Shown: positions 14,770 through 29,774 of the stretch, in pieces
Layout: each line of letters starts with the position of its first letter
Numbering within the stretch: the stretch's first letter is position 1
Assembly (NCBI GenBank): GCA_016220085.1
Contig: JACRIN010000025.1
Location: 1-64,000, forward strand
DNA from: Planctomycetota bacterium
GTDB lineage: Bacteria; Planctomycetota; UBA1135; GCA-002686595
DNA length: 64,000 nucleotides
Direction: 5' to 3'
Notes under the pieces: model-generated
The model's database searches: none
What the model was told of the DNA's origin: nothing
What the model saw: only the letters and a program-made list of their open reading frames with translations
Program-made: the position numbers and the translations under genes

Positions 14770-18162
<3,393 letters not shown>

Positions 18163-18165
18163 CGC

Positions 18166-19434
18166 TCACTTCGAGCTCGTCGCGCCCGCGCACGCGAGCG
18201 CGGCGAGCTCCATCAACACCGACGACGGAGAGCGCTTCCACGTCGCGAAGTCCGAGCTGTTGACCTGTAGGCCGTACGCGAGCTGCGCGTCGACGAGGTA
18301 GCCCATCTCGGTCACGTAGCCCGGGAAAAAGCCCGAGTGGCCGAGCACTCGGCCGAGGCGCGACTCGCCGACGATCACGCCGAGGCCGTACTTCACGTTG
18401 CGACCGAGCCCCGGCGCATCGACGGCCTCTTGCATGCGCGCGAGACCGTCCGCGTCGAGCACGGTGCCGCCGTACAACGCGGCGGACCAACGCGCGAGGT
18501 CGCGCGCGGTCGTGACGAAGCCGCCGCCGGTCCATTCGAACTGCGGATTGACGGCGTAGTGACCTTCTCCGTCGAACACGCGGTCCTGGATCCGCAGCGG
18601 ATCGTGCGCGCCCGCGTAGCCCTGCGCGCAGTGCGCGAGCTCGCGTTGCGTCGCCGGCTCGGTGTCGGCGAGCTCCAACGGTTCGAGGAAGCGCGCGCGC
18701 ACCTCGTCGTAGAGCGAACGCTCGCAGAGCTTCTCCAGGATCGCGCCGAGCACGATGTAGTTGGTGTCGCTGTAGTCCCAGCCCTTGCCCGCCTCGAACG
18801 GCGGCGTCGCGTCGAAGAGGTACTTCAGGCGGTCCTCGATCGACCAAGTCGTGTCCGGCTGAGCGACGAGGTCGGCGGTGAAGCGCTCGTCGAGCTCGTA
18901 GCGCGCCAGCCCCGACGTGTGGTTCATCAGCATGCGCACCGTGATCGACTTCGCGTTCGGCAGACGCGCGAACCAAGTCTCCTTGTCGAGCCAGCGCGAG
19001 ATCGGCGCGTCGAGCTCGAGTTTTTTCGCGGCGACGAGCTACAGCGCGAGCGCCGCGAAGAACGTCTTGCCGGCCGAGCCGGTGAACATGCGGTCGCCGG
19101 GCGTGAGCTCGCGTTGCTTCTCGCGGTCCGCGAGACCGCTCGCGAGCGCGAGCGTCGAGCCGTCGGCCCACACGAACGCGACGTTCGCCGCTGGGTAGTT
19201 CGCGGCGAGGACGAGCTCGTCGAACTTGGCCTGGAGCGCGATGCGCCGCGCGTCGGCGACCGCCGCGGCGGCTGCATGCGCGGTCGGTGCAGTCGGGTCC
19301 GTCCCGTGGCCGATCGCAGGCGGCGCAACTACCGCAACTGACGCGCGTGGCGCAACTGCCGTGAGTGACGCGTATGACGTGAGTGACGCGAGGAGGAACC
19401 CAGACGCGACGAACGGCGGCGAGCGCACGATCAC
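18166..19434 (-). pseudogene. Class C beta-lactamase-family gene interrupted by an in-frame TAG
   Basis: The frame from GTG 19434 to TGA 18166 encodes 422 residues apart from one TAG at 19039-19041. The start is well supported: AGGAGG lies 5 nt upstream. The first part carries a signal peptide and the nucleophile motif Ser-Ala-Gly-Lys (SxxK) in FTGSAGKTF. The second part carries YSD in WDYSDTNY and a late HSG, as in serine beta-lactamase/D-alanyl-D-alanine carboxypeptidase relatives. The TAG falls in FFAALAL-stop-LVAAKKLELDAPI, where family members commonly have Gln, so a single CAG to TAG change explains it. No frame shift is needed. Either the gene is inactive, the stop is read through, or the base is wrong. 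The downstream part alone could start at an internal ATG but would lack the nucleophile. Confidence 0.85.
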
Positions 19435-23709: not shown

Positions 23710-24144
23710 GCGGGACTCCTTGGGGAGAGGGACCGCGAGAGTCTAGGCAGCGCGGCGATCGGAGCCAGTGTCCGCTGCGCCGTTTTCGTGGGCTCGCGTT
23801 CCGCTGCGTCTCGTGTCGCAGGCGAAGTCGAGTCGGGCACCGAGTTCCGTGCGGTCTCCGCATTTCGCGGTGGGCGAACTCCGCTACCGCGGTGGGTGAC
23901 TTCCGCTCTTGCGGTGGGCGAGCTCCGGTTCCGCGGCAGGCGAACTCCGCTTCCGCAGTGGGCGCGTTCCGCCGCGGCGACAGGCGATCTCCGTCGCGGC
24001 TCGCGCGATGTCGCGTCGGCAACGGGCGAAGTCAACGTCGGCGACTGGCGCAGTCCGCCGCACCGACGGGCAAACTCCGCCTCGGCGGTGAGCGAACTCC
24101 GCCGCGGCCGGTCCGAGGTTCGCCGCGGCGCGGGGCGCGTTGGC
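23710..24144. other. Intergenic region containing the minisatellite
   Basis: This 435-bp gap lies between two minus-strand genes. The first 150 bp from 23710 should hold the MFS promoter and ribosome site; the rest is the 22-bp repeat array. I see no gene in it. Confidence 0.6.
23867..24140. repeat. Degenerate 22-bp minisatellite
   Basis: About twelve imperfect copies of a 22-bp unit run head to tail. The first four, at 23867-23888, 23889-23910, 23911-23932 and 23933-23954, are the most alike and start GCGGTGGGCGAACTCCGC or close to it. Later copies are more diverged and vary from 19 to 24 bp. The array fills most of the gap between the start of the MFS gene and the end of the ApbE gene. A period of 22 is not a multiple of 3, and no frame gives a steady peptide repeat, so it is not a coding repeat. 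Confidence 0.8.
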
Positions 24145-25194
24145 TCAGCGCTCGTCGCGCCAGCGCAGCGTGCTCGCCGGATCGATGGTCGTCCGCGCGC
24201 CCTCGCGATCGACCAGCACCGCTGCGGTCGCGGGGAACTGCTCGACCAACCGACGCGCGGTGGCGTCGTCGGCGAGCGCGAGCGCGGTCGCGAGCGCGTC
24301 GGCGAGCTCCCCGCGCGGCGCGACGACGGTCGCCGTCCGCGGCGCGAGCGCGCCGAGTCCCGTGCGCGGATCGACGATGTGCGCGTAGCGCTTGCCGCCG
24401 AGCTCGACGAACTGCTCCGCGTCGCCGGAGGTCGAGATCGCCGCGTGCGCGAGCAAGAGCACCGTCGGCGTTCCGCGCGCGTCGACCACGCGCGGCACCG
24501 ACACGGTCCAACCGCGCGCGCCCGGCGGTGGCGCGCCGGCCGCGACATCGCCCGCGAGCGCGACGAGCGCGCTCTCGAAGCCGAGCTCGCGAATCCGATC
24601 GAGCGCAGCCTGCGCGGCGAGACCCTTGCCGATGCCGCCGAAGTCGAGCCGCATCCCGCGCAGCGGCAGCGCCGCGCGTTGGTTCTGCGCATCGAGCTCG
24701 ACCAGGCGCCAACCGACCAACGCGCGCGCGGACGCGAGCTCTTCGACGCTCGCCAGTCGTCCGTTCGCGCGCATCGCGCGCCACTGGCGCACCAGCGGTC
24801 CGATCGTCGGATCGAAGAGCCCTTCACTGGCAGCCGCGACCCCAAGGCTCGTTTCAAGCGCAAAAGCGAGGTCGCGACCGATCGGCACCGCTCCGAGACC
24901 GGCGAGCTCGCACAGACGATTCGTCTCGCTGTCGACGAGCCAATCGGAGAGCGCTTGATCGAGCTCGGCGATCCGCAGGAACGCGAGGTTCGCCGCGGCG
25001 CTCGCGGCCTCTTCGTTCGGTGCGTAGATCGCGATCGTCGTTCGAACGCCCATCGCGATGCGGGTAAACTCGCTGCGCTCCGGGCCCGAGGCGCGACACG
25101 CCGCCAGTCCGAGCGCGAACCACGACAGCGCGAGCACGAACCCAGCGCCGCGAGCGCGAGCGATGAAACTAGAACGACTCACGACCGTCGCCAT
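24145..25194 (-). CDS. apbE: ApbE-family FMN transferase lipoprotein
   Basis: This is a 349-residue periplasmic lipoprotein: a hydrophobic signal ends in the lipobox LAAC with Cys33. ApbE enzymes attach FMN from FAD to Thr or Ser of proteins such as RnfG/NqrC or flavin-containing exported reductases. Family motifs are FDPTIGPL (127-134), DFGGIGKG (184-191), AISTSGD (about 252-258) and HIVDPRTG (272-279), with the metal-binding acidic residues in their usual places. No Rnf, Nqr or FMN-binding target gene is in the window. The start at 25194 is the only ATG that gives the signal peptide, and it overlaps the start of the divergent SUMF1-like gene by 32 bp. Confidence 0.88.
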   Translation of the reverse strand: MATVVSRSSFIARARGAGFVLALSWFALGLAACRASGPERSEFTRIAMGVRTTIAIYAPNEEAASAAANLAFLRIAELDQALSDWLVDSETNRLCELAGLGAVPIGRDLAFALETSLGVAAASEGLFDPTIGPLVRQWRAMRANGRLASVEELASARALVGWRLVELDAQNQRAALPLRGMRLDFGGIGKGLAAQAALDRIRELGFESALVALAGDVAAGAPPPGARGWTVSVPRVVDARGTPTVLLLAHAAISTSGDAEQFVELGGKRYAHIVDPRTGLGALAPRTATVVAPRGELADALATALALADDATARRLVEQFPATAAVLVDREGARTTIDPASTLRWRDER

Positions 25195-27418: not shown

Positions 27419-28336
27419 ATGAGCACGTTCGATCGACGCTCCGTGTTGCTCGCCGGCGGGGCGCTCGCCGCGTCGGCCGCGCTGGTCCGAACGGCTCGCG
27501 CACAGGAGGCGAAGCCGAAGCGCACGCTGCGCAAGGCGGTCGGGCTCGGCATGGTCGGCGAGGGCGCAACGCTGCTGGACAAGTTCCAGTTGCTTCGCGA
27601 CCTCGGCTTCGACGGCGTCGAGCTCGACAGCCCGAACGACCTGAAGCAGGACGACGTGCTCGCCGCGAGCCAGAAGACCGACCTCGTGATCAACGGGCTC
27701 GTGCACTCGAAGCACTGGGGCGCGCCGTTCAACTCCGACGACCCCAAGCAGCGCGCGGAGAGCGTCGCCGCGCTCGAGCACGCGTTGCGCGAAGCGAAGG
27801 TCTACGGCGCGCAGTCGGTGCTCGTCGTGCCCGCGGTCGTCGACGGCAACCTGAGCTACGACTCCGCGTGGAAGCGCTCGATCACCGAGCTCTCGAAGTG
27901 CGTGCCGCTCGCTCGTGAGCTCTCGGTCGAGATCGCGATCGAGAACGTGTGGAACAACTTCCTGCTCTCGCCGATCGAAGCGGCGCAGTACGTCGACGCG
28001 TTCCAGGACCCGATCGTGCGGTTCCACTTCGACATCGGCAACGTCGTCGCGTACGGCTGGCCGGAGCAGTGGGTGCGCATCCTCGGGCCGCGGATCGCGA
28101 AGCTGCACGTCAAGGACTACAGCCGCAAGAAGCGCGACGAGCAGGGCCGCTGGGCGGGCTTCGACGTCGAGCTCGGCGAAGGCGACGCGAACTACCCGGC
28201 GGTGATGCGCGCGCTCGACGAGAGCGGCTACTCGACCGATCCGCGCCGTCGCTGGGCGACCGCCGAAGTCGGCGGCGGTGATCGCAAACGCCTGGCGCAG
28301 CTCGCCGAGCAGATGAATCGTCTTCTGAACTCATGA
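27419..28336 (+). CDS. Exported TIM-barrel sugar isomerase/epimerase (pair 1)
   Basis: This is a 305-residue xylose-isomerase-like TIM barrel. The N-terminal FDRRSVLLAGGALAASAAL...ARAQ looks like a Tat signal. Barrel motifs include GFDGVELDSP, SVEIAIENVWNNFL, FHFDIGNVVAYG and AKLHVKDY, giving the usual Glu, Asp, His and Glu metal ligands of the family. Related proteins act as hexulose isomerases, inosose isomerases or 3-keto-glycoside lyases. The close spacing to the Gfo/Idh gene (7 nt) suggests the two act on one periplasmic substrate, with the oxidoreductase making a keto sugar that the isomerase rearranges or cleaves. That coupling is inference. Confidence 0.8.
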   Translation: MSTFDRRSVLLAGGALAASAALVRTARAQEAKPKRTLRKAVGLGMVGEGATLLDKFQLLRDLGFDGVELDSPNDLKQDDVLAASQKTDLVINGLVHSKHWGAPFNSDDPKQRAESVAALEHALREAKVYGAQSVLVVPAVVDGNLSYDSAWKRSITELSKCVPLARELSVEIAIENVWNNFLLSPIEAAQYVDAFQDPIVRFHFDIGNVVAYGWPEQWVRILGPRIAKLHVKDYSRKKRDEQGRWAGFDVELGEGDANYPAVMRALDESGYSTDPRRRWATAEVGGGDRKRLAQLAEQMNRLLNS

Positions 28337-28344
28337 CCCCCGTC

Positions 28345-28468
28345 GCGCGGAGTCGGAAGTACGGAGTCGCACCCCTTCTTCCCGGTCCCGGCGACGCGCG
28401 TTCAGATCGGCGCTGCGTTCGCCGGAACGGCAAAGAAGCGGTGCGACTCCGTACGTCCGACTTCGCGC
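28345..28468. repeat. Long imperfect inverted repeat between two oxidoreductase genes
   Basis: Left arm 28345-28380 and right arm 28433-28468 pair at 33 of 36 positions. The 52-nt loop has its own partial pairing (CCGGTCCCGGCGACGC with the GCGTTCGCCGGAACGG side), so nearly the whole intergenic region can fold into one long hairpin. No T tract follows. It separates the first Gfo/Idh-isomerase pair from the second. It could be a REP- or MITE-like element, an RNA processing site or an attenuator. Confidence 0.85.
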
Positions 28469-28487
28469 CTCGCCCCCAGGACGCACC

Positions 28488-29774
28488 ATGACTGCCCAGA
28501 GCTCCGTCAATCGTCGTCACTTCGTTCAAGGCACCGCGGCGTTCACCGCCGCCGCGCTCGCGTCCGGCGCGTTCGCACGCGCGGCGGCGCCGAACCGCGT
28601 GTCGAAGCTGCGCTACGGCGTGATCGGCTGCGGCGGGCGCGGAACCGGCGCCGCGCTCAACGCGCTCGAGGCGTCGCCCGACGTCGAGATCGTCGCGCTC
28701 GCCGACGTCGTCGCCGATCGGCTCGCGGGGGCGAAGCAGAGCCTCGCGGAGCTCGAAGGCGACCTGTCGAAGCGCGTCAAGGTCGACGCGAAGCACTGCT
28801 TCGTCGGTTTCGAGGCGTACCAAGAGCTCTGCGCGCTCGATCTCGACGTCGTGATCCTCGCGACCGCGCCGGGGTTCCGGCCGATCCACCTCGCGGCGGC
28901 GATCGCGGCGGGCAAGCACGCGTTCATGGAGAAGCCCGCGGGCGTCGATCCGACCGGCGTGCGCTCGGTGCTCGCGTCGGCGAAGCTCGCGCGCGAGAAG
29001 AAGCTCTCGATCGTCGCCGGCACGCAGCGCCGCCACGAACAGTGCTACCGCGAAGCGATGGCGCGCGTGCAGGCCGGCGCGATCGGCGAGATCACGCACG
29101 CGAACTGTTACTGGAACCAGGGCAGCCTCTGGGTGAAGCAGCGCGAGCAAGGCTGGAGCGACACCGAGTGGCAGGTGCGCAACTGGCTCTATTTCGCGTG
29201 GCTCTCCGGCGACCACATCTGCGAACAGCACGTCCACAACCTCGACGTGTGCAACTGGGCGATCGGCTCGCACCCGCTGCGCGCGACCGGCATGGGCGGC
29301 CGCCAGGTCCGCGTCGCACCGGAGTACGGCAACATCTTCGATCACTTCGCGATCGACTACGAGTACGCGAACGGCGTGCGCGTCTCGAGCTACTGCCGCC
29401 AGATCGACGGCTGCGCGGGCCGCGTCGAGGAGATCGTCCACGGCACCGAGGGCGTGCTCTACACCGCCTCGAATCGCGCCGAAATCGTCGGCAAGCAGCC
29501 GTGGAAGTTCACCGGCGAGCAACCGAACCCCTACGTGCAGGAACACGCCGATCTGATCGCCGCGATCCAGAGCGGCACGCCCGTCGACGAGGCGACCGCG
29601 GTCGCCGAGTCGACGCTGACCGCGGTGATGGGGCGCATGTCGGCTTACACCGGCAAGGAGCTCTCGTGGGAGCAAGCGCTCGCCTCGAAGCTCGACCTGG
29701 TGCCCGCGCGCTGCACGATGGGACCGCTCGCGATCGAGCCCGTCGCGGTGCCCGGCAAGACGCCGTTCGTCTGA
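28488..29774 (+). CDS. Tat-exported Gfo/Idh/MocA oxidoreductase (pair 2)
   Basis: This is a 428-residue paralogue of the product of 26089. It has the Tat motif VNRRHFVQGTAAF, the Rossmann motif GVIGCGGRGTGAAL, the EKP motif HAFMEKPAGVDP and the same downstream signature, WLSGDHICEQHVHNLDVCNWA. The two proteins share the RQIDGC and YCR-type stretch near residue 300, so they arose from one ancestor. It starts a second oxidoreductase-isomerase pair after the long inverted repeat. AGGA lies 6 nt before the ATG. The substrate is not determinable; the following mutarotase points to a 6-deoxy sugar as one option. Confidence 0.85.
   Translation: MTAQSSVNRRHFVQGTAAFTAAALASGAFARAAAPNRVSKLRYGVIGCGGRGTGAALNALEASPDVEIVALADVVADRLAGAKQSLAELEGDLSKRVKVDAKHCFVGFEAYQELCALDLDVVILATAPGFRPIHLAAAIAAGKHAFMEKPAGVDPTGVRSVLASAKLAREKKLSIVAGTQRRHEQCYREAMARVQAGAIGEITHANCYWNQGSLWVKQREQGWSDTEWQVRNWLYFAWLSGDHICEQHVHNLDVCNWAIGSHPLRATGMGGRQVRVAPEYGNIFDHFAIDYEYANGVRVSSYCRQIDGCAGRVEEIVHGTEGVLYTASNRAEIVGKQPWKFTGEQPNPYVQEHADLIAAIQSGTPVDEATAVAESTLTAVMGRMSAYTGKELSWEQALASKLDLVPARCTMGPLAIEPVAVPGKTPFV

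Follow-up and report, generated by a model that had tools for sequence, protein, structure and literature searches.

The BIME and REP clusters of enterobacteria are mosaic runs of inverted palindromic units that lie in intergenic DNA, often on the 3' side of genes. The repeat family reported here also forms mosaic inverted palindromic runs that are intergenic and often 3', but its sequence is another one, its copies are far fewer and it belongs to another phylum. RAYT-like genes flanked by terminal inverted repeats (TIRs) were described by Di Nocera et al. 2013 as TIRYTs and TIRtrons (PMC3733652). According to the available text of that paper, TIR families are moderately abundant and occur as singles, dimers and groups, and the motif GGGGWSAS is common to only some TIRs. 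In the available part of PMC6006769, most TIRYTs are placed in TnpA_Y1 subclass 2.1. As far as the accessible text on the REPIN/RAYT system goes (Bertels and Rainey 2011, PMC3116915), our family resembles it in having intergenic inverted doublets that form a hairpin and, in relatives, a tie to a low-copy Y1 gene. It differs in that runs in tandem are frequent, the arms measure about 35-50 nt, and the GTAG/GGAG tetranucleotide is absent from the hairpin foot, where the unit consensus starts GACATACGG; a GTAG foot is characteristic of classical REPs.

We analysed a 64-kb stretch of DNA (the window) from a Planctomycetota draft genome of 5.55 Mb in 111 contigs, 86% complete (G000). A palindrome in the window is probably a non-autonomous, REPIN/MITE-like miniature mobile element of a dispersed intergenic family, moved in trans by a Y1/HUH transposase of the TIRYT/RAYT type.

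The hairpin and its gene context

The features of the locus are as follows.
28345..28468, no strand: whole palindromic element, putative REPIN/MITE-like doublet (sequence reading, inverted-repeat search, fold, BLAST; absent in G001 and G002)
28356..28390, + strand: left repeat unit, consensus GACATACGGTGTCGCACCACTTCTTCCAGGTTCCG (nhmmer E 2.3e-8; exact tip TACGGAGTCGCACC at 28360-28373)
28423..28457, - strand: right repeat unit, inverted (nhmmer E 5e-7; exact tip at 28440-28453)
28345..28359, no strand: outer extension of the left arm resembling part of a second tip, CGGAGTCG, that lacks CACC (mirrored at 28454-28468 in the right arm; direct reading)
28395..28418, no strand: spacer of 24 nt separating the 50-nt arms, with some pairing in the predicted fold (inverted-repeat search, RNA fold)
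27419..28336, + strand: upstream gene, xylose-isomerase-like TIM barrel (PF01261), context only
28488..29774, + strand: downstream gene, GFO/IDH/MocA oxidoreductase (PF01408), context only

Direct reading of the sequence pairs 28345-28380 with 28433-28468 over 36 bp with three mismatches, and the palindrome takes up 124 of the 151 nt of the gap between ORFs 27419-28336 and 28488-29774. These are the figures given in a preliminary description of this DNA. An inverted-repeat search lengthens the arms to 50 nt (28345-28394 and 28419-28468, 86% complementary) with 24 nt between them. The predicted fold pairs part of this spacer, in line with the partly paired loop of the earlier account. A partial tip is repeated within both arms on direct reading. 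The palindrome is by far the top inverted repeat of the window; the arms of the next one are 70% complementary. When folded as RNA, positions 28335-28478 reach -97.8 kcal/mol on the plus strand (z -10.0) and -100 kcal/mol on the minus strand (z -8.6), and on either strand 0 of 200 dinucleotide shuffles were as stable. The sequence contains no T run 3' of the hairpin, as had been stated before. Given the absence of a T tract, we rejected an intrinsic terminator. An Rfam scan of the 64-kb window gave no matches at the gathering score.

The flanking genes form two co-directional pairs, each of a GFO/IDH/MocA oxidoreductase and a xylose-isomerase-like TIM barrel, and the two oxidoreductase genes are paralogues with about 65% DNA identity. 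Elsewhere in the window, positions 23780-24160 are GC-rich and intergenic and contain numerous degenerate repeats of the GGCGAACTCCGC and GGCGATCTCCG types, apparently unrelated to the palindrome.

Copies in the genome and absence at the same sites in relatives

The preliminary description had proposed a REP/MITE-type element, to be checked by a search of the arms against the genome and by comparison with strains lacking the insertion. Both comparisons speak for this proposal. A BLAST of the window gap against G000 matched further places (best E 1e-7), and the tip TACSGNGYCGCACC occurs exactly 32 times in this genome versus once for the reversed-pattern control, so that the element is multicopy. 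An iterated HMM over 11 fetched stretches and the window found 54 units at E<=1. At E<0.01 there were at least 49 units in 16 clusters, a lower bound for the genome because the scan covered only stretches already containing the exact tip. Neighbouring units within 400 bp are arranged +- in 14 cases, -+ in 3, ++ in 10 and -- in 6; thus opposite neighbours are mostly convergent. Only four units stand alone, and the remainder form doublets and runs, including inverted doublets of the REPIN type dispersed in intergenic DNA. A simple gene caller based on codon usage found no gene overlapping 12 of the 16 clusters; in three, the overlap is confined to 2 nt of a stop codon, and one overlaps a weak ORF.

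An array in C105 (L125, G000:C105:8000-22000, record 14897-16673) is a dense nest of 11 or more tip units within 1.8 kb that is largely free of genes: a span of 0.85 kb contains eight, and another three follow after a further 0.7 kb. An integron attC site, considered because of the arrays and the position after stop codons, seems unlikely, since the conserved ends do not resemble attC core sites. In C3 (L129, record 18144-18400), two elements are separated by a partial copy of the 3' end of the upstream gene, and C19:181488-181797 is laid out similarly. The C3 layout suggests tandem duplication of the gene tail together with the element; some copies would therefore have spread by local or segmental duplication.

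The two arms of one element are slightly more alike (similarity 0.754) than arms of different elements (0.723; p 0.011, 14 pairs), which is modest evidence from sequence that the arms of one element evolve together. Doubled tips in tandem also occur upstream of C5:122596. Paired arm likeness and repeated or doubled tips hint at copying through the hairpin.

We compared the same sites in three same-genus genomes. Both flanking genes of the window palindrome are kept in G002 (identical in sequence with the L060 record; protein identity 95%) and in G001 (likewise with the L061 record; 87%), and in both the gap sequence is different and the palindrome is absent. The window site thus lacks the element in two of the three genomes; G003 aligned well on the left side only. 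The sister gaps are not clean empty sites and hold roughly 60-110 nt of other sequence. The C3 cluster is absent in all three genomes (G001, G002, G003). The C5 cluster is absent in two of the three, G001 and G003, and G002 was not resolved there. The C5 site of G003 has GATTGTAGCG joined to short filler. The exact tip was found nowhere in the three genomes. We read the absence in the sister genomes as a gain of the element in the G000 lineage; that several lineages lost it is less likely. Most likely, judging from these alignments, the window element was inserted after the split from the same-genus relatives.

The elements at G000:C5:122592 and C96:26316 both start close after one motif, ATTGTAGCG. 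G003, whose C5 site is empty, already has this motif there. It is possible that this motif reflects an insertion preference or is a promoter motif.

The hairpin might instead be primarily an RNA element of the operon, a 3' stabiliser or a processing or attenuation site between the gene pairs that is selected for its structure. The highly stable fold of the coding strand between co-directional genes agrees with this, and in other bacteria REPs lie mainly 3' of genes, according to the available text of PMC3733652. However, 15 more clusters, which lie next to different genes and in some cases between divergent ones, have the same primary sequence, the palindrome is missing from the same gap in G001 and G002, and there is no T tract. 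This makes a primary RNA function improbable. The hairpin, which is presumably transcribed between the two genes, could have an RNA role as a secondary effect.

Transposase genes and repeat tips in related genomes

We searched 61 genomes, from G000 itself out to its genus, family and order, with the profile PF01797 (Y1_Tnp); 29 had matches. G000 was not among them: neither PF01797 nor a profile of seven relatives at E<=10 found a Y1 transposase gene in this 86% complete assembly. We inspected 15 Y1_Tnp loci, picked from 30 (17 read) for resemblance to a group of 345-400 aa. Immediately beyond the gene, 10 of the 15 loci show inverted repeats of 16 nt or more that bear a TAC-type tip. The tip is TACSGNGYCGCACACC at four loci (G012, G015, G032, G033), CAGGCTC at four (G009, G018, G030, G035), CAGCCTC at one (G003) and CCGAAC at one (G027). 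No such repeat was found at the other five: L145 and L147 lack it, and L139, L146 and L158 are truncated or have short flanks. This tally leaves out L196, a second G003 transposase locus found with the relatives' profile. The Y1 gene of same-genus G002 has the related flanking tip TACGGAGCCAGGCTCC; transposase genes of the same genus thus carry a CAGSCTC tip, not GCACC or GCACACC. A second Y1 gene of G012 (C13, in L166) has its sole exact tip about 10 kb away. By the likeness of these sequences, the palindrome appears related to the repeats that flank Y1/HUH transposase genes in other genera of the family and has nearly the same tip.

PF01797 scored above the cut-off in all three relatives' proteins scanned, and no other Pfam domain, including a C-terminal HTH, was found in them at E<=1. 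The NCBIfam model NF047646 (REP-associated tyrosine transposase) gave 55-67 bits in all three, below its cut-off of 80. Seven aligned Y1 proteins share an invariant HFH and, 57 residues later, an invariant tyrosine in YIDxN. This spacing is near the medians of 58-67 residues that the available part of PMC6006769 gives for most TnpA_Y1 subclasses.

The units of G000 carry GCACC and the transposase-linked tips carry GCACACC. What connects the two subtypes is that they begin with the same 13 nt and are laid out alike as doublets. The GCACACC tip TACSGNGYCGCACACC has no occurrence in G000, and no Y1 gene flanked by GCACC-subtype tips was found among the loci inspected. In G012, G035 and G021 the GCACC tips continue differently (AATCnCCGCCG); the tip core therefore outlives its flanks. 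In G035 (L177), two convergent tips 1.85 kb apart were considered as an autonomous GCACC-type element. They enclose ordinary-looking ORFs (by eye, a TetR-like regulator and an OmpH-like protein), and the pair is therefore not a transposon.

As an exact 16-mer, TACSGNGYCGCACACC is present in 20 of 61 genomes. Seven genomes, all from the same family, have at least 14 copies: G033 62, G012 28, G024 24, G015 20, G017 17, G008 16 and G016 14. G008 and G017 have 16 and 17 GCACACC tips, yet no PF01797 match; copies lacking a detected gene are therefore not unique to G000. G033 is a single contig with one Y1 match and 62 exact TACSGNGYCGCACACC units. Its dispersed units, seen in 30 fetched loci, mostly share the repeat of about 48 bp that flanks the Y1 gene, with L244, L245 and L247 among the divergent ones. 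Neighbours within 450 bp in G033 are +- in 20 cases, -+ in 0, -- in 11 and ++ in 4; in other genomes, among the matches listed, the counts are 31, 0, 5 and 4. Tip variants agree in 14 of 20 arm pairs of G033 (p 0.021). At L221 and L234 of this genome, terminal tips are doubled or multiplied in tandem on one side of the element, with a period of 26 nt or longer.

Small size, multiple copies and inverted repeats at the termini would also fit a classic MITE of the DDE type, which would in addition have a target-site duplication. We regard it as having hardly any probability: 11 G033 elements, the window element not among them, gave no target-site duplication signal (observed 2.36 vs shuffled 2.11), which matches the expectation for Y1 and not DDE elements; the genes found inside related terminal repeats belong to the Y1/HUH type and not to the DDE type; and lone units and tandem tips exist.

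The comparison with TIRYTs and TIRtrons, as the available texts describe them, shows likeness on two points. Relatives have a RAYT-type Y1 HUH gene with terminal inverted repeats (GCACACC subtype), and the moderately abundant copies dispersed in G000 occur as singles, dimers and groups. There are differences as well. The tip TACSGNGYCGCAC only partly fits GGGGWSAS (by eye, GGAGTCGC at 6 of 8 positions and GGAGTCAG of G035 at 7 of 8), the C-terminal HTH of subclass 2.1 was not found by Pfam in the three relatives' proteins, and G000 has no detected transposase. The own family works like TIRYT/TIRtron repeats, and its best place is beside them. Since the search gave no cognate gene for the GCACC subtype, we do not count the family as a full member of the TIRYT TIRs.

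Proposed mode of spread and significance

Copies, their arrangement, their absence in relatives and the likeness of the tip to transposase-flanking repeats were observed directly in this analysis. We infer movement by an enzyme with single-strand chemistry. Two inverted repeat units would form one hairpin, an element like a REPIN or a TIR doublet. A Y1/HUH transposase of the RAYT/TIRYT type, acting on single strands and encoded elsewhere or in a recent ancestor, would recognise the TAC-S-G-N-G-Y-C-GCAC tip of each arm whenever the hairpin DNA is in single-stranded form, as may happen on the lagging strand. Cutting and rejoining at the tips would then move the element in trans.

It is also conceivable, if rather doubtful, that the family is an inert relic: active in a recent ancestor, it would have lost its transposase, and the copies would only decay or be duplicated with neighbouring DNA. 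The negative transposase search of G000 fits this, as does the second C3 element behind a partial gene-tail copy, by which part of the spread is segmental duplication. On the other side, copies are missing in sisters at three tested sites, which implies activity after the genus split, and about 14% of the genome is missing from the assembly. The relic reading overlaps with a mobile element moved in trans, for which present activity is not required.

A broader reading, which we think unlikely, makes this a family-wide planctomycete system. Here diverging low-copy HUH transposases would act in trans to move palindromic elements of the tip subtypes GCACC, GCACACC and CAGGCTC, GCACC would spread as an orphan that has no dedicated gene, and the tandem doubled tips in both arms would be a signature of hairpin-templated replication.

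The palindrome family is a new one, and the kind of element is already known. In the available texts on TIRYT, REPIN/RAYT, domesticated bacterial RAYT transposases and planctomycete REP repeats, the tip is apparently undescribed. As a mobile element moved in trans, the window hairpin is explained without a special link to the sugar genes. The finding adds a concrete repeat family and a candidate cognate transposase type to an uncultured Planctomycetota lineage, in which such elements have hardly been described. Transposases and tips occur here as a natural series of pairs in which the tip variants match, and one genome, a single contig, has 62 copies; recognition by RAYT-like enzymes could be tested in this material.
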